From the NCBI RefSeq assembly GCF_003970675.1, contig NZ_CP034562.1:3348001-3412000 (forward strand): a DNA stretch of 64,000 nucleotides. Direction: 5' to 3'. Numbering within the stretch: the first letter of the stretch is position 1; the number at the start of each line of letters is the position of its first letter. Both the position numbers and the translations under genes were made by a program. The notes below the pieces were generated by a model. The model worked only from the letters and a program-made list of their open reading frames with translations. It had not been told where the DNA came from and searched no databases. Origin of the DNA: Flammeovirga pectinis. GTDB lineage: Bacteria > Bacteroidota > Bacteroidia > Cytophagales > Flammeovirgaceae. Positions 10,465 to 50,652 of the stretch are shown here, one piece after another.

Positions 10465-12357
10465 TCATTTTGAGACCTCTGTGAGTGTTTTTAGCATAGA
10501 AAAATACTGCGTTGGTGTTTTTGATGTTTCTTTTTTGAATGCTCTATTAAAGGCTGTTTTAGAATTAAAGCCTACATTATAGGCATGTCCTAAGTAGGTC
10601 AGCTCGTTATCTGTATCTCCATTTACGGCATCTACAAAAGCTTCTACTCTATAGGAATTCACAAAATCATAGAAATTTTTCTTATATCCATCATTAATTA
10701 CTTTGGATAAATCATGCGTGTTTGTTTCTAGAATTTTTGCTAGATCAGGAAGTGTTAAACGAGCATTCTCATAAAGACATTCTTCTCCCATTTTTATTGC
10801 AAGGTCATTTTTTATTGCAATAAGATCTGACGATAATTCTTTAACAACTTCTTGTTCTACCTTCTCCGAATTTACTATTGTGTTCGGAATATTATCTGGA
10901 AAGTTAATTACCTCAGATATACGTAATATTTCAGGTTGGTTCATTGCATAATAACCCATAACAAAAGAGATACTTGCAATCATAAACCATAATGTATCCG
11001 ATAAGAATTCTATTAGATTCTGTGGATTGTAATCAAATAAGTAGTGGGCACTGCCTACAATATATAGCATACCCCAAATAATTAAACAACCTGCATAAAC
11101 AGCCGTCACTCCACTTAAATAATTTAGGTTTCTTTCTTCTGATAGAACTTCTACATTATTTACTTTCTGACGATCCAATACTTGTTTACATTTCCACCAA
11201 TAATAAATATTAAAGAGTAAACCTAAACCACCAAAAAGATTAAATAACCAATTAAATTCTTTATCTAAGACACCATTAATAAACTCTTCATTTGGCATTG
11301 CCAATAAAGGAATATAGGTAATTATTTGCATCCCAAAAGGAACAAACCTATAAAAGAGATCTTTCTTTGCAGATTCTGAATCAGTTAGTTGCTTAATGTA
11401 GAAATAAAATAGTGGGCTATATAAAAATAGTAATAACTCTGGTACTAAATATATTTTAGGAAACTCATGGAACATATCTCTATAATACATTGCCACTCTA
11501 GACATCAAAGCGATTGATGTTAAGAAAATTAAGCCCATCAATATTAAATTAGCTTGACGGTTATTATCTTGGATACTAAAAATTGAAAGTATTAAAACTA
11601 TACCTTGAAATGCTCCTAAAAGTAGTAAAAACATATAAGGCGTCATGGTATTACCAGAAAGGTCTTCCCAACTACTTACCTTAATTTCTTTTTTCCAACC
11701 ATCAATAGATACATCATAGACTCTATTTCCGATTGCTCGACCATTCTCTCGTCCTTCTACAGATTCCCAAGAACCTCTTGTCACTTTGTAATTAAATTTC
11801 TGAACTCCTATTGGTAATGTGATATAATAATTACCATCAGGGTGCTTATTTAATTTACTTTCAACATCATTTGTTCTCCAATCATTAAAATCTCCTGTAA
11901 CAAATAAAGTTGCATCATAAGGAGTTTCATCGGGAACGTCTTGTACAACTAATTGTACTCTGTTTAAAAATTGCTTTGCTTTGTCTTGCCAAGATAAAAT
12001 TTTGATATCAATTTCATTTGGACTTGATGCGTCATACACTCTATTGGATTTTATTTCTCCAACATCATTGCCTTCAACGCTTTTCCAATTACCTCTAGTA
12101 AATTTATATTGGAAACTACCTGCTTGTTTTGGCAAACGGATATAATATTCTTTACCATTTTTCTTTAATTGAAAATTAGGATCGTTTGGTGCCCATTCGT
12201 TTAAAGAAGTCACTAAATAGATAGCTGCTGTTTTTGGTGTATAAACAGGATATTCTTTAATAGTAAATGTGATAGAATCTGACTGAGCGTGCGAATTGTA
12301 ATTTGTAAAAAAAGTACACAGTGAAAAAATAAATAGAATAGTAATTTTATTATTCAT
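10465..12357 (-). CDS. Membrane-spanning AraC-type regulator with two periplasmic starch-binding-like modules
   Basis: A 630-residue protein from the preferred ATG at 12357; the frame stays open to 12450, but those extra residues would precede the signal peptide. Residues 1-25 are a signal peptide ending NSHAQ. Two tandem modules follow (about 26-125 and 130-237), each with a Trp after a strand (SLNEW, DFNDW) and a YKxTRGxWxSVEG block, like CBM20/CBM48-type glycogen- or starch-binding folds. Seven hydrophobic segments cover about 240-485. Residues 530-625 form an AraC-type helix-turn-helix (LTLPDLAKILETN, then YNVGFNSKTAFNRAFKKE). The odd number of helices puts the sensor outside and the DNA-binding domain inside. 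It sits directly downstream of the giant amylase, separated by a terminator. Starch sensing is inference. Confidence 0.85.
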   Translation of the reverse strand: MNNKITILFIFSLCTFFTNYNSHAQSDSITFTIKEYPVYTPKTAAIYLVTSLNEWAPNDPNFQLKKNGKEYYIRLPKQAGSFQYKFTRGNWKSVEGNDVGEIKSNRVYDASSPNEIDIKILSWQDKAKQFLNRVQLVVQDVPDETPYDATLFVTGDFNDWRTNDVESKLNKHPDGNYYITLPIGVQKFNYKVTRGSWESVEGRENGRAIGNRVYDVSIDGWKKEIKVSSWEDLSGNTMTPYMFLLLLGAFQGIVLILSIFSIQDNNRQANLILMGLIFLTSIALMSRVAMYYRDMFHEFPKIYLVPELLLFLYSPLFYFYIKQLTDSESAKKDLFYRFVPFGMQIITYIPLLAMPNEEFINGVLDKEFNWLFNLFGGLGLLFNIYYWWKCKQVLDRQKVNNVEVLSEERNLNYLSGVTAVYAGCLIIWGMLYIVGSAHYLFDYNPQNLIEFLSDTLWFMIASISFVMGYYAMNQPEILRISEVINFPDNIPNTIVNSEKVEQEVVKELSSDLIAIKNDLAIKMGEECLYENARLTLPDLAKILETNTHDLSKVINDGYKKNFYDFVNSYRVEAFVDAVNGDTDNELTYLGHAYNVGFNSKTAFNRAFKKETSKTPTQYFSMLKTLTEVSK

Positions 12358-12496: not shown

Positions 12497-12531
12497 AAAA
12501 AAAAGAGCACAGAAAGATACTCTCTGTGCTC
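12497..12531 (-). terminator. Terminator of the giant amylase gene
   Basis: A 9-bp stem GAGCACAGA/TCTGTGCTC (12505-12513 with 12523-12531), followed on the minus strand by eight T, 16 bases past the amylase stop. Confidence 0.9.
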
Positions 12532-12546
12532 ATTAAATTACAATTC

Positions 12547-15500
12547 TTATTTTTTAAGTATTCGCTTTACTTCTAAATACGAACCAATCTGAATTTGCAC
12601 TAAATGAATACCACTTGGTAAATCACTAGTATTCAGCTCTAACTGATTATTACCCTGAGGTAAACGTTGCTCTACAGATGGAATTACTTGTCTTCCTTGT
12701 AAATCAAATATTTTAACAATAGCGTTTGTATTCTCTTCTATTATTACAACATCTAATGTTGCTTTCTGAGTTACTATTGTTGGATATAATTTCACAGATA
12801 AAGCTAGTTTATCTTCTAAATTAAATGTTCTTGCTCCACTACTTTCTGGATTAGAAGCATACCATTGTCCATCTTTATACCATCCTTCTTGATTTCTAGA
12901 CAAATCTCCAGTTTGTTGTCCAGAACCATTATGGAATAATACACTTGCAGAAGTAGCTCCATTTATTGTGTAAGAATACCAACCATTTCCATCATCTACC
13001 ATTGCAACTCCAGGCCATGTTGATGACGTTCCATTTGATGTATTCCAATAATGAATTTTTGTACTACTACCCCAAGAAGATTTAAAATGAACTGTTAAGC
13101 CTTCTGGTTGAGGTGGTTCCTCATCATACCATTGTCCATTTTTAAACCAGCCATCTTTATCTCTTGTTAGATCTGCTGATTTATAACCAGAAGTAGTATG
13201 GAATAATAGATTAGTTGATGTTACATTTGATGTAAATTCAAAATACCACCATCCATTCTCTCCTTCTGTAAGTGCTACACCCGGCCAAGTTGTACTCGCT
13301 ATTGCTCCTACCGGAGTTACACCCCAATAATGAATTAATGGGTTACTTGCTCCTTGGAAATATACTTTAAAGCCTCCAATAACTTCATTTACAGTAAATG
13401 TTTTTGAAATTACTGCTGACGTATTACCTGATGCATCGACAGAAAACGCTTGTACAGTATGATCTCCAACATCAGTTAAATCAAAAGATACAGTTGTAAC
13501 TGCAGACATAGATGCTGTAGTTGGTAATGTCCCATCAGTTGTATAATAAACTGTTGGTGCATTATCTCTAGTATCTGTTGCTGTAATAGAAATTGATACT
13601 AGTCCATCATAAGTACCACTATCTGGAGTCATTCCAATTGTTGGAGCGGTTTCATCTTCACCAATTTCAACCCAAGCGCCATTCTCATAACCTAAGCCTT
13701 CGTTACCACAAGTAGATAAATCTCCAGTTTTTCCTGCACCGCTATTTGTGAAAATAACATTTGCACAAGTACCTCCTTCAACTTCATATTTCATCCACCC
13801 TGTTCCAACTTCTGGAGCAGCTTGTAATTCAACACCTGGCCATGTTACTGGATTTGGATCCGTAATTGTTCCATTTGCTTCTACATTCCAATAATATACG
13901 TGACTATAATTTTTTACATAAATAGTAAATGTTTGGATAGGATTGAAAGTAAACACTTCCGAAATAATATCAGAAGAGCCTTCTGCGTTATAAGCGATTG
14001 CTGTTATCGTTACTGTCTCTCCTTCATTACCATTTACAGCTATTGCTCCCGTATATTCTAATGATGAACTCGATGGAGTAGTACCATCAATTGTATAATA
14101 GATCACCCCATCTTGAGTTGCAGAAATTGTTACATTTCCTGATCCATTAGAGAAATTTTTACTTTCCGGACTGATAGTTACAGTAGGTACCATCGGTCCA
14201 GGGCAATTGCCAGGACAACTATTTGACCAACTTCCATCTTTATACCAACCATCTTGAGTTCTTGATAAATCATCTGATTGAGCTCCTCCATTGTCTGTAA
14301 ATACAATACCCGTAGATAATGCAGTTACAGTTGCATGATACCAACCATTACCAACATCTGTCATGGTAGCACCCGGCCAAGCGGTATCCTCAGTACTGCC
14401 AACAGGAACAGCATCATAATGATGCATATTAGCATTACCCCAATCTGCAGGTTTGTAGAAGTATACGTTGATAGGGTCAATCTGACCCACGGCGTATTTT
14501 TTCTCTGCAGCACCTGTACGTCCTGAAGAATTAACTGCTATTGCTCTAACTGTTGCCGATTGAATTAAATCAAAAGGTCCTGTATAAACATCCCAAGTAA
14601 GATAATCCTCTTTATTATCACTATCATTAGTAGTATAATAAGTAACTACATTAGGATCTTCTGCATCAATTGCTGAGATAGAAACTGTAATTGAAGTTTC
14701 ATCATATTGTGTATCTGGAGATATATTTACAATTGGACGAGAAACGTAAGTGTAGTTTTTATCATATAATAAAACAATACCTTCTGCATCTGCTGTAAAT
14801 GATACAGATCCATTTTCAACAACTTGCATTGTACCCGTATAATGATCAATAATCGTATCTCCGTTAGGGTAATAATCTGCAACATCAAAAGTAACTGTTC
14901 CTTGTGCACCTACAGCTACAATAACTCTATCAGAAAGTTGTTCTGCTGGGTTATTATAATCACGTACAAAAGTATAAGGAGCACTTCCTATTTGCTTATG
15001 AGAACCTGCTCCAACAGATGGATGGTCTCTACGGAAAGTACCTAACTTTTTCCACACATTATGTTGAGCAGTATTAAAATTACCCCAGTTCATTTCTGAA
15101 CGAGTATTTTGTTCTGCATCACTCCAATTTCCTTCAGGTCTTCCTGTTTCATCACCATAAAATATTTGAATACCTCCTGGTAATAACAAGAAACCTGGTG
15201 CTGCTGCATGTAAAGAGTTACGATCAAACAGTGGCACTACATCATGTGATGACAAATAACTTAATGAGTTCCATGTAGAATCATCATTAATAGTTGCGTA
15301 TTCTGAATACAATGATTCTAAAGAACTTGCATCTCTGCTTGCCACACGTGCATCATTTTTAAGATTAAAATTGATTACTGAATTAAAGTTACCATCAGTA
15401 TGATAGTTCGACTTATTCTTACCATGTCCCCAAACTTCTGCAGTCATCCAGAATTCTTTACTATCCATTGCTTTTGATGGATTTTCTTCTTTCCACGCTG

Positions 15501-18500
15501 CTAAAGCTGCAATAGCATATTGTTTTAATCTAGCCCAACGCTCCATCTCAACATGTTTCGCAGTATCTATTCTAAAACCATCAATACCGTACTTTCTTAC
15601 CCAATCTGTAAGCCAGAATATCATATAATTTGATACTACTCTAGGTAAACCTGTTTCATTAAAGAAAGCATCTAATTCAGCTGTTTTCTCTGCTAATTTT
15701 CCTTCTTGAGACCACTTTGTAACAAGAATTGGAGGAATACCTACTGGTGCTAAATCTTCTGTTTTTAAATCTGGTAAGAAACCAACACAATTATCAATTC
15801 CACCTCCAGAAGAACAGGCATCATAACCATCAACATCTGGATGACGCATCCAATCTGGACCCCAATATTTAGAAATCCATGTTCCACCAGAAGAATAATC
15901 AACAAATTTCTCATGGTATGAATGCCATGAATCTGCTCCAGATGGTTGCCAAGCTCTCCAAGATGGATCTACAGTTCCGTAGCCAAATTCTTCCATATCT
16001 TGCATTGTTGCATAACCTGTATGGTTCATTACAACATCTACTACAATACGGATTCCTCTTGAGTGAGCTTCATCAATAAACTCTTGGAAGTCTACTTCTG
16101 TACCCATGTTACGATCTAGCTCTGACCAATCTAGTGCATAATAACCGTGGTATCCATAATGACGGAAAGATCCATCAGAACTTCCTCCAACCCATCCATG
16201 CATTTGTTCAACTGGTGACGTAATCCAAATTGCATTTACACCAATCGCTTCAAAATATCCTTCACGAAGTTTTGCAGTCATACCTTTTAAATCACCTCCA
16301 TGGAATTCTCCAGCAGATGAGTCATCAGTATAATCTCCTCCGTTACCATCCTTCCCTCTGTTGTACTCATTGTTATTAGAAGGATCGCCATCATAAAAAC
16401 GGTCAGTCATTGTAAAATAAACTGTCGCATTATCCCAAGTAAAATTATCTTTCTTGGCAGTTGGACCTGAGTTATTATTATTATTATTATCTTCTTCGGT
16501 TTCTTTAGTGTAAGTTGATGTTACAACCTCAGAAGAAAGATTACCTTTAAATGCTTTTGCTTTTAAAACCGTTGTTTCTGTAAAAACTAAAGTTGATGAA
16601 TAAAGCAAAGATGAAGTAGTTGGTGTTGTACCATCTACTGTATAATAAATAGATGCTCCGTCATTTGATGAAAGATTTACAGAAAACGAATCTATAAATG
16701 TAGCGTCTGATTGATCAGAAGAAATTGTAACAACTTCAACATCATCAGGACAATCTCCACCAGTACAAGCTGTTGAAATAACACCCTCTGAATACCAAGA
16801 AGTACCAGAGATAATTACATCTGTATCTTGATTAGTAGCAAAATCATGAAAAACAAAATTAGCTGATTCAGCACCAGGTAATGCAACCGAATACCAGTTA
16901 GATGTTCCTTCAACAAGTTGCATTTCTACACCAGGCCATTCTGTATCTGATACAGAACCTGCAGGCGATGCTGCCCAATGATGTGCATATAATGCTTCCC
17001 AACCTGCTTGTTTCTGTACATAAACAGTCATTACAGGAAGAGGTTCTCCAACATAAAATTTCTTTTCTATTTGACCCGATTTATTTTCTGAATCAAATGA
17101 TATAGCTTTTACTGTTGTTGTTGTATTAATAGTAAAAGGTGCCGTATAAACAGCCGAATTTATTGTAGGAGTACTTCCATCTATAGTATAATAAATCGAT
17201 AAGTTAGGATCTCTATCATCAATAACTGATAATGTTATTTCAATAGGATTATCAGATTGTTGAACAGAAGGATATATTGTTACAGTAGGTGCAGTATTTA
17301 CACCTACTCCTTTATCCCAAATCATATAACCAGGACCTTCTGCTTGAATAATCCATCCAGAACCATTTGGTCTCCAACTTGTATTACCAATTGTCATTGC
17401 AAGTTTATCGTCTACAACTGCAGCATAACCACTACCATCTGCTTGCTGAATACTTACAACACTTGTTTTAGAAATATCATTCGCTTTACGAATAGCAATC
17501 ATTTGTGCTATTTCATCGTAAATGCCATATTCAAAAAGGTGAGAATAAAACACCATTGGAGAACCTGCGTGTGTTAAGATATACGCATAACCTTGTAATA
17601 CTTGAGAGTTAGAAACAGGATCATTAGGGAATGCACTTCCTGGATGATCTCCTTGTCTTACTGGCTCAGTATCATGATTTTCTAAAAATGTAACTGATTG
17701 CTGAGGCCAAGTACCTGCTACACCAGGCATCTTACCACCATTGTTTAATACTCCATAATTACCATTTACAGCACTATGCAAAGCAAACTTTAAAGGAAAA
17801 TCAAATGCTGTAGAAGTACCTTGTGCACCATCTACCCAATTGATGATATCTTGCGTATTACTTGTCCAATTCTCTCCTATTGAAATAGATGGAGAAGTTG
17901 CATTGTTATAATCAGCAAAATAATTTGCAGCAAAACCATGTACAAAATCATATCTCCATCCAGAGTAACCCACATCAGATTTTAACCAATTCATCCAATC
18001 TTTAATCGCTTGTTGCGTAGCTGGATCTCTGTGGTTAATATCTCTTGCAGCACTATAAGGTGTACCTGTGTCAAAATCACCACAACCTTCACCTGGGAAT
18101 TGTTCATTTACTTCATCATCAGAAGTAATTCCATTACACCCTAAAGCAGGTTCACAGAAATCTGCCCAACCTGTACAACCTACTCGATGATTAATAACTA
18201 TATCTGCAATAGAAACAACACCAAGGTTATTTAATTGAGATATCAACGCTCTAAGTTCTTCTTCAGAGCCATAGTTAGAATTTAGGTCATACCATTTTCT
18301 TGGTAGATAACCCGCTCTATCACCTGCATCAGAAGATGGAGGTAACCATATACCATCAATATCAGCTGCTTTAATTGCAGCTGCTTTAGTTGATAATACT
18401 TGCCACCAATCTTTTTGGGCGGCGTCTGCTGATTCCCAGTGGAATCCTTGCAAATAAACTTCTTTTCCATCCTGTGCTATTGCTACTACATTATTAAGTA

Positions 18501-18561
18501 GTAGAAATAGAATTGAGATGACAGAAGTAAGTAACAGTTTAAAGTTCTTTTCCATTTTCAA
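12547..18561 (-). CDS. Giant secreted dual-GH13 alpha-amylase with five CBM26-like modules and type IX secretion tail
   Basis: A 2004-residue multidomain enzyme. After a signal peptide (1-29) comes a GH13 domain (about 30-415) like plant and archaeal amylases, with Asp in GWRYDFVHG (near 204), Glu in ISIGENW (229) and Asp in FLENHDTE (295). A second GH13 domain (about 707-1270) resembles periplasmic MalS: FTMTDRF, GEFHGGDLKG, Asp in GFRIDTAKHVE (near 999), Glu in TAEVWGHG (1043), Asp in YLSSHDVV (1106). Both triads look complete. Five chitobiase-C/Fn3-like modules (near 427, 609, 1275, 1459, 1639) and five CBM26-like starch-binding modules (near 510, 1362, 1542, 1730, 1819) surround them, and an Asn-rich linker precedes GH13-B. 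The last 85 residues (LYPTIVTQKATLDV to VKRILKK) are a type IX sorting domain. Export to the cell surface or medium for starch hydrolysis is expected. Confidence 0.95.
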   Translation of the reverse strand: MKMEKNFKLLLTSVISILFLLLNNVVAIAQDGKEVYLQGFHWESADAAQKDWWQVLSTKAAAIKAADIDGIWLPPSSDAGDRAGYLPRKWYDLNSNYGSEEELRALISQLNNLGVVSIADIVINHRVGCTGWADFCEPALGCNGITSDDEVNEQFPGEGCGDFDTGTPYSAARDINHRDPATQQAIKDWMNWLKSDVGYSGWRYDFVHGFAANYFADYNNATSPSISIGENWTSNTQDIINWVDGAQGTSTAFDFPLKFALHSAVNGNYGVLNNGGKMPGVAGTWPQQSVTFLENHDTEPVRQGDHPGSAFPNDPVSNSQVLQGYAYILTHAGSPMVFYSHLFEYGIYDEIAQMIAIRKANDISKTSVVSIQQADGSGYAAVVDDKLAMTIGNTSWRPNGSGWIIQAEGPGYMIWDKGVGVNTAPTVTIYPSVQQSDNPIEITLSVIDDRDPNLSIYYTIDGSTPTINSAVYTAPFTINTTTTVKAISFDSENKSGQIEKKFYVGEPLPVMTVYVQKQAGWEALYAHHWAASPAGSVSDTEWPGVEMQLVEGTSNWYSVALPGAESANFVFHDFATNQDTDVIISGTSWYSEGVISTACTGGDCPDDVEVVTISSDQSDATFIDSFSVNLSSNDGASIYYTVDGTTPTTSSLLYSSTLVFTETTVLKAKAFKGNLSSEVVTSTYTKETEEDNNNNNNSGPTAKKDNFTWDNATVYFTMTDRFYDGDPSNNNEYNRGKDGNGGDYTDDSSAGEFHGGDLKGMTAKLREGYFEAIGVNAIWITSPVEQMHGWVGGSSDGSFRHYGYHGYYALDWSELDRNMGTEVDFQEFIDEAHSRGIRIVVDVVMNHTGYATMQDMEEFGYGTVDPSWRAWQPSGADSWHSYHEKFVDYSSGGTWISKYWGPDWMRHPDVDGYDACSSGGGIDNCVGFLPDLKTEDLAPVGIPPILVTKWSQEGKLAEKTAELDAFFNETGLPRVVSNYMIFWLTDWVRKYGIDGFRIDTAKHVEMERWARLKQYAIAALAAWKEENPSKAMDSKEFWMTAEVWGHGKNKSNYHTDGNFNSVINFNLKNDARVASRDASSLESLYSEYATINDDSTWNSLSYLSSHDVVPLFDRNSLHAAAPGFLLLPGGIQIFYGDETGRPEGNWSDAEQNTRSEMNWGNFNTAQHNVWKKLGTFRRDHPSVGAGSHKQIGSAPYTFVRDYNNPAEQLSDRVIVAVGAQGTVTFDVADYYPNGDTIIDHYTGTMQVVENGSVSFTADAEGIVLLYDKNYTYVSRPIVNISPDTQYDETSITVSISAIDAEDPNVVTYYTTNDSDNKEDYLTWDVYTGPFDLIQSATVRAIAVNSSGRTGAAEKKYAVGQIDPINVYFYKPADWGNANMHHYDAVPVGSTEDTAWPGATMTDVGNGWYHATVTALSTGIVFTDNGGAQSDDLSRTQDGWYKDGSWSNSCPGNCPGPMVPTVTISPESKNFSNGSGNVTISATQDGVIYYTIDGTTPSSSSLEYTGAIAVNGNEGETVTITAIAYNAEGSSDIISEVFTFNPIQTFTIYVKNYSHVYYWNVEANGTITDPNPVTWPGVELQAAPEVGTGWMKYEVEGGTCANVIFTNSGAGKTGDLSTCGNEGLGYENGAWVEIGEDETAPTIGMTPDSGTYDGLVSISITATDTRDNAPTVYYTTDGTLPTTASMSAVTTVSFDLTDVGDHTVQAFSVDASGNTSAVISKTFTVNEVIGGFKVYFQGASNPLIHYWGVTPVGAIASTTWPGVALTEGENGWWYFEFTSNVTSTNLLFHTTSGYKSADLTRDKDGWFKNGQWYDEEPPQPEGLTVHFKSSWGSSTKIHYWNTSNGTSSTWPGVAMVDDGNGWYSYTINGATSASVLFHNGSGQQTGDLSRNQEGWYKDGQWYASNPESSGARTFNLEDKLALSVKLYPTIVTQKATLDVVIIEENTNAIVKIFDLQGRQVIPSVEQRLPQGNNQLELNTSDLPSGIHLVQIQIGSYLEVKRILKK

Positions 18562-18863
18562 TTCATAAAAATTAGTTAATCAGAAGTTGTGTGTTTTGGG
18601 AGCACACTTTTCATTTCATATACCCAATTTTACTAATGAAAAAGATGGTAATCGACACTCAAAAAAATAAAACGTTCACATTACACTTTGCAACGTTCCA
18701 AATCAAGAACCGGCACTTAATAACCATCACCTAAAGTAGTTTAAAGTACTATTTTCAAGTTTTACTTTGCTAAGAAAAATTCTTAAGAATTAATTCAAAA
18801 TTCTAATTTTCGAGAAGATTAACTATCTTTCTTGAAAGAAAACACTCCAACTTAAACGAAACT
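18562..18863. other. Divergent intergenic region upstream of the amylase
   Basis: About 300 AT-rich bases between the divergent amylase and epimerase-like genes. It must hold both promoters, but I find no exact TAnnTTTG box on either strand. A pair of direct repeats 21 bases apart (see the separate entry) is the only striking structure. Confidence 0.6.
18671..18698. promoter_or_regulatory. Candidate operator: tandem AACGTTC repeats
   Basis: AACGTTC occurs at 18671-18677 and again at 18692-18698, 21 bases apart, that is two helical turns, about 110 bases upstream of the amylase start. Tandem direct half-sites on one face of the helix are the usual layout for AraC-family binding sites, and the neighbouring gene encodes an AraC-type regulator. 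The link is inference from spacing and position. Confidence 0.35.
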
Positions 18864-49468: not shown

Positions 49469-49502
49469 AAACCTCATACATTTAATTGTATGAGGTTTTT
49501 TT
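49469..49502 (+). terminator. Terminator of the coaX-OMP-TPR operon
   Basis: A 12-bp perfect stem AAACCTCATACA/TGTATGAGGTTT with six-base loop and T run, 25 bases after the TPR gene stop. Confidence 0.93.
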
Positions 49503-49521
49503 ACGTTTAAACTTTCTTATC

Positions 49522-50652
49522 ATGTATAAATTAGTTCTAATTGCATTAATATTATCTTTTACTTCTTGTGTAAAACAGAGTAACAACGTTAATGTCACTT
49601 TAAATATCATTTTAAATAAACCTGTTGACAAACAAATTTACATTTCAGGAAATCAAGCATTCCTTGGAAATTGGTCACCACAAAGTATATCATTAAAAAA
49701 AATAGACTCATTACATTGGACCTTTACAAGTGAAGTACCTAAAAACACACTACTAGAATATAAATTCACTTTAGGTGATTGGAAATTTCAAGCTGCGGAT
49801 ATACATGGTGTGCCTCTTGAAAACAGTGAAACCTTATGCTCAGAAAGTGATACTTCTATTACGATAAGTATTGAAAATTGGACTTCAGGTGATCAACCAA
49901 AATATCAAGGACAAATAACTGGAAAGGTCGAATACATTAATAATTTTCATGTTGATGGTTTGATAGATAGAAATATTATTATCTGGCTTCCTCCATCATA
50001 TTCAAAAGATCAAAATAAAAGGTACCCTGTTTTATATATGCATGATGGACAAAATACTATTGATCCTAAAACAAGTTCTTTTGGGGTTGATTGGCAAGTT
50101 GATGAAACAGTAACACAACTTATTGATAAAAATAAGTTACAAGAGATTATAATTGTTGCTTCTTATTGTACTGAGAACAGGAATGATGATTACGGAGATA
50201 CTGAAATAGGTAAATTATATCGTAAATCTCTCGCTATTGATTTAAAAAACAGAATCGACACAAAGTATAGAACTAAATCCCAGAAACAATACACAGCTAT
50301 TGCAGGCTCTTCTATGGGTGGATTAGTAAGTTTTATGTCGGCTTGGGAATACCCAAATGTATACAAAGGTGCTATTTGTATGTCTCCTGCATTCAAATAT
50401 GAAGATTTTGATTATATCAACTCTATTAAATCAGATAAGAAAAAAGAACTTTTGCTATATATTGATAATGGAGGTAAAGGAGTTGATGTTATCCTTCAAC
50501 CTGGCGTAGAGAAAATGGAGAAAGAACTACTCAAAAAAGGATATAAATTAAATGATGATTTATATGTAGTCTATGATAAAAAAGCAAAGCATTCTGAAGG
50601 TGATTGGGCATTAAGGTTCCCTTATGCTATTCAATTATTTTTCCAGAAATAA
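49522..50652 (+). CDS. Lipoprotein esterase (alpha/beta hydrolase) with N-terminal starch-binding-like module
   Basis: A 376-residue protein from the ATG at 49522; the longer frame from 49486 would begin inside the upstream terminator. A lipobox (SFTSC, Cys16) implies lipid anchoring. Residues 20-125 form a CBM20-like module (YISGNQAFLGNWSPQSI, then EYKFTLGDWKFQAAD). Residues 140-376 form an esterase-D type hydrolase: nucleophile Ser in AIAGSSMGGLVSF, a late His in KKAKHSEGDWALRF, and the opening YMHDGQN. It may deacylate a polysaccharide or oligosaccharide at the cell surface. The N-terminal module is related to those of the regulator at 10465. Confidence 0.88.
   Translation: MYKLVLIALILSFTSCVKQSNNVNVTLNIILNKPVDKQIYISGNQAFLGNWSPQSISLKKIDSLHWTFTSEVPKNTLLEYKFTLGDWKFQAADIHGVPLENSETLCSESDTSITISIENWTSGDQPKYQGQITGKVEYINNFHVDGLIDRNIIIWLPPSYSKDQNKRYPVLYMHDGQNTIDPKTSSFGVDWQVDETVTQLIDKNKLQEIIIVASYCTENRNDDYGDTEIGKLYRKSLAIDLKNRIDTKYRTKSQKQYTAIAGSSMGGLVSFMSAWEYPNVYKGAICMSPAFKYEDFDYINSIKSDKKKELLLYIDNGGKGVDVILQPGVEKMEKELLKKGYKLNDDLYVVYDKKAKHSEGDWALRFPYAIQLFFQK

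Follow-up and report, generated by a model that had tools for sequence, protein, structure and literature searches.

The window analyzed here (the whole stretch of DNA, 64,000 nucleotides) belongs to a host genome of 6.68 Mb in three contigs, whose closest named relatives are Flammeovirga genomes at 58–59% identity. On its minus strand lies the gene of a regulator that joins two starch-binding-type modules, seven predicted membrane helices, and an AraC-type DNA-binding domain in a single chain (Table 1). The reading frame was taken from the ATG at 12357 to the stop at 10465, with an alternative ATG possible two codons upstream; an earlier note on this DNA, made from the letters alone, had the extent of the gene right and gave no strand. 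Immediately upstream of the regulator, on the same strand, is the amylase that we presume to be its target, a protein of 2004 residues with two GH13 regions (residues 16–369 and 702–1215) that differ in their NCBIfam matches, CHB_HEX and CBM26 repeats, and a type IX secretion tail.

Because a terminator-like hairpin stands between regulator and amylase, the two are probably not one operon; transcription of the pair as a single unit was considered and thought unlikely for this reason. The region has two such hairpins, and shuffled sequence would be expected to contain 1.8. The amylase is present in all ten Flammeovirga-type genomes examined and adjoins the regulator in six of them. The earlier note had proposed that the regulator controls the adjacent amylase, and the neighbor in the window is indeed a GH13 gene, but adjacency itself is lacking in the other four genomes. 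These are draft assemblies of 120–460 contigs and form two pairs of near relatives, as judged by their shared promoter sequences.

Table 1. Features of the regulator and amylase genes, with positions in the window
Feature	Positions	Strand	Basis
CBM-CBM-7TM-AraC regulator gene, 630 aa	10465..12357	minus	translation, homologues
Signal peptide, residues 1–25	12283..12357	minus	sequence; helix 3–22 in AlphaFold2 model
Starch-binding-type module 1, residues 27–130	11968..12279	minus	models, fold searches
Starch-binding-type module 2, residues 131–237, ending in juxtamembrane SWEDL	11647..11967	minus	models, alignment, fold searches
Seven-helix membrane bundle, residues 240–473	10939..11640	minus	AlphaFold2 model; hydropathy passes six of seven helices
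AraC-type helix-turn-helix, residues 539–619	10501..10743	minus	PF12833, fold matches
Terminator-like hairpin and T run, between amylase and regulator	12505..12531	minus	simple consensus match
Secreted amylase, two GH13 regions, CBM26 repeats, T9SS tail; presumed target	12547..18561	minus	
TAAAATTG, candidate -7 element, 20 bp after GTGTCG; one mismatch to TAnnTTTG	18625..18632	minus	sequence; spacing in relatives
Degenerate proximal half-site GTGTCG	18653..18658	minus	aligned with box B of relatives
Candidate operator dyad GTGCCGGTTCTTGATTTGGAAC, degenerate copy	18695..18716	minus	aligned with relatives; background score with half-site matrix

Architecture of the regulator

AlphaFold2 was run on an alignment of 43 homologues, from which locus L046 was excluded as a near copy of L045. 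The model (mean pLDDT 83, pTM 0.58) contains beta modules at residues 28–119 and 135–226, seven helices between residues 240 and 473, a low-confidence linker at 483–505, and a helical AraC domain; at this pTM, the placing of the domains relative to each other is uncertain. The signal peptide, the two tandem modules, and the AraC helix-turn-helix that had been claimed from the letters were all seen again in the sequence, the Pfam matches, and the model, and both tryptophan motifs are there, SLNEW at residues 51–55 and DFNDW at 156–160. The signal peptide is probably cleaved after SHA. The seven hydrophobic segments of the earlier note stood in part, as seven helices appear in the AlphaFold2 model, but only six segments pass a hydropathy scan, the fifth helix (369–389) falling below the threshold. 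The topology is predicted to be N-out/C-in. In this model, lysine plus arginine averages 3.0 and 3.5 in two of the three predicted inside loops, 0.2 in the first inside loop, which is very short, and 0.4 to 1.7 in the predicted outside loops.

The C-terminal helix-turn-helix places the protein in the AraC/XylS family. Its match to PF12833 (6.8e-9) is over the curated cut-off, HTH_18 was found by Pfam in 43 of 43 homologues at E ≤ 0.01, and the domain matches the folds of 3oou, 3lsg, and 2k9s.

Starch-binding-type modules

Pfam matches to the modules of the regulator itself fall below the curated cut-offs. Residues 151–202 match X25_BaPul_like at 2.3e-4 (21.6 bits against a cut-off of 27) and AMPK1_CBM at 1.3e-3 (19.3 against 26.8), and because of these scores we call the modules starch-binding-type and assign them to no CBM family. 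Among the 43 homologues, at E ≤ 0.01, X25 was matched in 19, CBM_48 in 11, and AMPK1_CBM in 11.

The fold is more informative, and the structure prediction and fold search that had been proposed as a check on the N-terminal domains returned modules of the starch-binding kind. With a model of the modules only (residues 24–240, mean pLDDT 88.8), 43 of the top 50 PDB matches were starch-binding domains or amylolytic enzymes, as judged by the PDB descriptions, many of them repeat entries of a small number of proteins (a branching enzyme, cyclodextrin glycosyltransferases, and BoGH13ASus). Pilins, adhesins, and an S-layer protein made up the remaining seven. The matches include a CBM26 (6b15), a CBM41 (2j44), BoGH13ASus with maltoheptaose (8dl1), and the CBM20 of STBD1 with maltotetraose (8x8k). 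Single-domain TM-scores, normalized to the target, were moderate (0.61 for STBD1 and 0.50 for the B. cereus CBM20), and at 0.50–0.61 the modules share the beta-sandwich fold of the CBM20/CBM48/X25 superfamily. A profile of the module pair, searched against PDB sequences, reached only two forms of BoGH13ASus (whole-sequence E-values of 9.8e-6 and 1.3e-5), in which no individual stretch was significant by itself (best 0.11).

The binding-type residues of module 2 hardly vary, with W160, K191, R194, and N211 each present in 43 of 43 sequences and W197 in 42. We take the glucan-contacting W100, K126, W133, and N150 in the glycogen-binding domain of AMPK beta to be the counterparts of W160, K191, W197, and N211. 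A starch-binding fold is no proof of binding, given that in the tandem pair of BoGH13ASus, as reported in the cited passages, the CBM98 binds maltooligosaccharides and the CBM48 does not (PMC11633381).

The module profile was cross-checked on other proteins of the host. It picks out a 388-residue protein of the window (49486–50652), in which a CBM_20 domain (Pfam 9.4e-10) is joined to a putative esterase domain. On host contig 2, at 518–532 kb (L236–L240 and part of L242), three giant frames of 1676, 1918, and 2083 aa match the profile repeatedly, and one of them, partly scanned, has leucine-rich repeats.

Distribution and kinship of the family

The proposal to look for the same architecture across Bacteroidota was followed up: among 291 genomes of the order (Cytophagales-type), at least 39 have modules, seven helices, and AraC domain combined, and so does one genome elsewhere. 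That genome came from a phylum survey of 392 genomes, scored at three candidates per genome, in which 104 had a match; among the matches listed, the module-bearing form occurs in five genomes, of which four belong to the order and the fifth to a different one. Proteins of the 7TM-AraC kind without modules are widespread in the same sample. In a tree of 66 sequences, based on the 7TM-AraC part, the 43 module-bearing rows stand together with one long-branch module-less row among them, and the labels (module-bearing or module-less) change twice, against 19.3 times in shuffles. A single origin of the module-bearing form would be compatible with this tree, and we do not claim it as a result.

Linkage to starch genes

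Three sets of loci were compared: 45 module-bearing, 23 module-less 7TM-AraC chosen by hand as controls, and 12 with stand-alone module proteins. The first set comprises 44 of at least 47 full-length homologue rows, leaving out three same-genus paralogue rows (G063, G104, and G204), plus one locus from the phylum survey (L218). Profiles for GH13 and SusD were built from the host genome's other such genes (12 and 30 seeds), and the window's own amylase was kept out of the seeds to limit circularity.

GH13 was the next open reading frame (ORF) at 21 of the 45 module-bearing loci and at none of the module-less (0/23) or stand-alone (0/12) loci. Either GH13 or SusD lay within two ORFs at 35/45, 1/23, and 0/12 loci, respectively, and within five ORFs at 38/45, 3/23, and 1/12, which bears out the suggestion that the neighbors of such regulators are GH13 genes. 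With each of 22 genus groups counted once, Fisher tests gave 5.6e-4 for the next ORF, 3.8e-7 for two ORFs, and 7.8e-7 for five. No GH13 or SusD was found within five ORFs at the other seven module-bearing loci, two of which are on contigs of just 5.0 and 7.5 kb. The common gene order is regulator, susC, susD, susE, GH13. Pfam gave a similar picture for up to four flanking ORFs per locus, with GH13 and SusD each in 9 of 80 ORFs around 21 module-bearing loci and each in at most 1 of 92 around the 23 module-less loci, where neither is among the 25 families shown. Since the module-less set has no starch link (1/23), the link does not come from the 7TM-AraC part alone.

The two comparison sets have neighborhoods of their own. 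S41 peptidases make up 7 of the 92 ORFs flanking the module-less regulators (L097–L099 and L102–L121), which may point to a different class of signal. The stand-alone tandem-module proteins (L087–L096, L100, and L101) directly follow two genes, one from a sequence cluster of LytS-type histidine kinases and one from a cluster of LytTR response regulators, in 12 of 12 cases, the identity of each cluster being taken from one scanned representative. They are perhaps part of a separate glucan-sensing two-component system.

A candidate operator

When the amylase upstream regions of ten Flammeovirga-type loci were aligned, one conserved island stood out amid diverged DNA, and a similar island was seen in other genera in the gap between the regulator and susC or GH13. 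It consists of a dyad of 22–23 bp, GTRCCAnnTT..AAnnTGGYAC, and a downstream direct half-site, AAAGTGGnRCG (box B), the core of which ends 20–21 bp before TAnnTTTG, the -7 element of Bacteroidota. This spacing from half-site to TA..TT was found in 25 of 32 promoters; in 200 shuffled sets it turned up 0.15 times on average and never more than twice. A half-site that abuts the promoter at a constant distance is the look of a class II activator site. The fixed spacing belongs to part of the family: at 16 regulator loci outside the 32-promoter count, it was found 0 times within 450 bp on either side of the regulator, and seven of these loci (L069, L070, L077, L081, and L084–L086) have GH13 as the next ORF.

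A half-site matrix was trained on eight loci of two genera. A threshold of 24 picks out 12 of 41 other loci (29 are missed), no control locus (0/35), and 3/205 shuffled loci; with a threshold of 22, these counts become 15/41, 3/35, and 7/205. A strict form of the operator was found 18 times, once per locus, among 48 regulator or amylase loci (866 kb), and not at all in the 35 control loci (619 kb). Flammeovirga contributes no hit, and eight of the 18 come from loci on which the matrix was trained. Every hit is in the stretch that separates the regulator from the next gene, be it susC (13), GH13 (3), or a 374-aa ORF leading to susC (2), although one of the three GH13 hits is 28 bp inside the longest reading of the GH13 ORF. 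A loose form is present in 30 of the 48 loci against 8 of the 35 controls. As the motif was first noticed by eye in some of the counted loci, the spacing, the strict form, and the threshold of the matrix were all set after the fact, and the control loci and shuffles serve as the check on these counts. Two other descriptions of the element were dropped. A first regular expression for the dyad had zero matches in any locus, and a matrix of the 23-bp dyad without box B was not specific (at a score of 14, 8/41 test loci, 2/35 controls, and 9/123 shuffles) because the dyad may be 22 or 23 bp; the half-site version took its place.

The amylase promoters of Flammeovirga have a form of their own, a direct-repeat pattern, which occurs once per genome, at the amylase, in seven Flammeovirga genomes. 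These include the four in which the amylase lies apart from the regulator, and the regulator is kept in all four. The reversed pattern had no match in ten genomes. The form is absent from the amylase of the window's genome and of its near twin (G077), where it matches elsewhere, and G163 has no match. Under the half-site matrix, a differing second half-site keeps the scores of the window and of the four non-adjacent amylase promoters inside the range of the shuffles.

Flammeovirga also contains a second, divergent group of regulators (L081, L084, L085, and L086), which adjoins a different GH13 amylase. In the matching place, three of the four have GTRTCA..TGAYAC and the fourth has GTGTCA..TGAGAC; no such dyad was found at L077, which is grouped with them.

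The element might instead serve another regulator, with the CBM-7TM-AraC gene merely a neighbor kept with the locus. The degenerate copy in the window and the 16 regulator loci that lack the spacing pattern, some of them beside GH13, would fit such an arrangement. Against it, the strict element is confined to the gap between a CBM-7TM-AraC regulator and susC, GH13, or the susC-leading ORF, four genomes keep the regulator with amylase and element elsewhere, and the divergent paralogue group has a related dyad. We regard this as unlikely, if the least unlikely of the alternatives, and take the regulator to be the probable binder of the operator.

Proposed mechanism

In our view, the protein is likely to activate transcription of genes for alpha-glucan use as a one-component transmembrane regulator. 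Its signal peptide would place the two CBM20/CBM48-type modules in the periplasm, where they would bind malto-oligosaccharides that the secreted amylase frees or SusCD-type transporters import. Starch or maltodextrin had been named earlier as the signal; a periplasmic malto-oligosaccharide is more likely than polymeric starch to be the ligand within reach. Binding would alter the pair of modules, and the SWED joint at the boundary of module 2 and helix 1 would relay the change to the seven-helix bundle, a coupling that is suggested by the invariance of W230 and D232 across the 43 homologues. The bundle may then reposition or dimerize the cytoplasmic AraC domains. These would bind an operator of three half-sites, the inverted pair GTRCCA..TGGYAC and the direct AAAGTGGnRCG, and would thereby activate, rather than repress, the amylase here and the susCDE-GH13 operons in relatives.

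The bundle itself, and not the modules, could recognize a small ligand, with the CBM modules just tethering the protein near glucan or presenting glucan to it. Module-less 7TM-AraC proteins are, after all, common (the five module-bearing genomes stand among 104 with matches, counting the matches listed), the nearest folds of the bundle are GPCRs and rhodopsins, although weakly so (TMt ~ 0.5), and W387 and W457 in the membrane part are invariant across the 43 homologues. The modules, however, track starch genes (35/45 loci against 1/23 within two ORFs), and the invariant joint suggests that they are coupled to the bundle; we consider sensing by the bundle improbable. It is very improbable that the modules represent degenerate beta domains, do not bind glucan, and instead serve dimerization or partner proteins, as the sub-cut-off Pfam scores of the regulator and the non-binding CBM48 of BoGH13ASus (PMC11633381, cited passages) might suggest, since the W, K, and W of binding type are kept in 42–43 of 43 sequences and the linked genes are those of alpha-glucan use.

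Sensing of malto-oligosaccharides by the modules, the reading that we prefer, can be extended to the family as a whole, and on this wider proposal we are evenly divided. The family would be a kinase-free class of receptor: membrane-anchored class II activators that carry a pair of starch-binding CBMs on a seven-helix bundle, act directly on DNA, and have a three-half-site operator to themselves. It would be the usual switch of starch polysaccharide utilization loci (PULs) in many Cytophagales, replacing SusR and hybrid two-component systems (HTCS), and the base preference of the operator would shift with the regulator subgroup.

Comparison with known systems

Among Bacteroidota, the well-documented case of starch use is that of Bacteroides, with SusR and HTCS. 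Among open-licence papers, we found no described switch of such a kind for Cytophagales-type bacteria, and among those in PMC no description of the CBM-7TM-AraC fusion, of its link to starch loci across genera, or of the operator. The family offers a compact and testable arrangement of sensor, membrane relay, and DNA binding in one chain, together with a candidate operator of fixed geometry. It may give access to how a seven-helix bundle signals to a DNA-binding domain and to how a membrane-tethered activator reaches a promoter away from its own gene.

Receptors of the 7TMR-DISM class combine a periplasmic sensor, seven helices, and an intracellular output. The regulator has the same layout of sensor, helices, and output, its output being a DNA-binding domain, but its helices have no Pfam match to a 7TMR-DISM model up to an E-value of 10 (with HMMER filters on), and we do not place it in that class. 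S-helix contexts of 7TMR-DISM receptors are treated in part of PMC1592074.

SusR and HTCS had been named as doing the same job with a different architecture, and the cited passages agree (PMC3878776, PMC11633381). As described there, SusR of Bacteroides is also a membrane protein with a periplasmic sensor and a cytoplasmic DNA-binding part, and it activates sus genes on maltose or maltooligosaccharide. Its DNA-binding domain is reported in the portion of PMC3878776 used here to have no significant similarity to known transcription factor families, whereas that of the regulator is AraC-type by Pfam, so that we do not count the regulator as SusR-like. It further differs from SusR in its two CBM-type modules, its seven helices, and its predicted dyad with a proximal half-site. 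A regulator in a Pontibacter starch PUL is also called "SusR" in the relevant part of PMC11206854. HTCS share with the regulator a single chain, periplasmic sensing of glycans, and an AraC-like output (PMC3878776, in part), but the regulator has no Pfam match to a histidine kinase or receiver domain and is not an HTCS.

Close in general plan are the membrane-bound AraC-type one-component regulators of Saccharophagus degradans, which have 6–7 TM helices (Weiner et al. 2008, PMC2386152). In the portion of that paper drawn on here, they combine an AraC output with these helices, their genes adjoin those of polysaccharide-degrading enzymes, and they are proposed to detect extracellular polysaccharides. 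The regulator likewise has its AraC domain and helices in one chain with no kinase, and the general kind is therefore already known. The description of the S. degradans proteins, within that portion, has no CBM sensor and no operator, and this sets the two apart; there they adjoin genes for cellulases, a beta-glucosidase, and a cellulose-binding protein (PMC2386152). For the modules, the closest solved sequence is the CBM98-CBM48 pair of BoGH13ASus (8dge, 8dl1, and 8dl2), which is a tandem in a starch system too (PMC11633381, in part). That pair sits in an outer-membrane amylase, whereas the pair described here sits in a membrane regulator.
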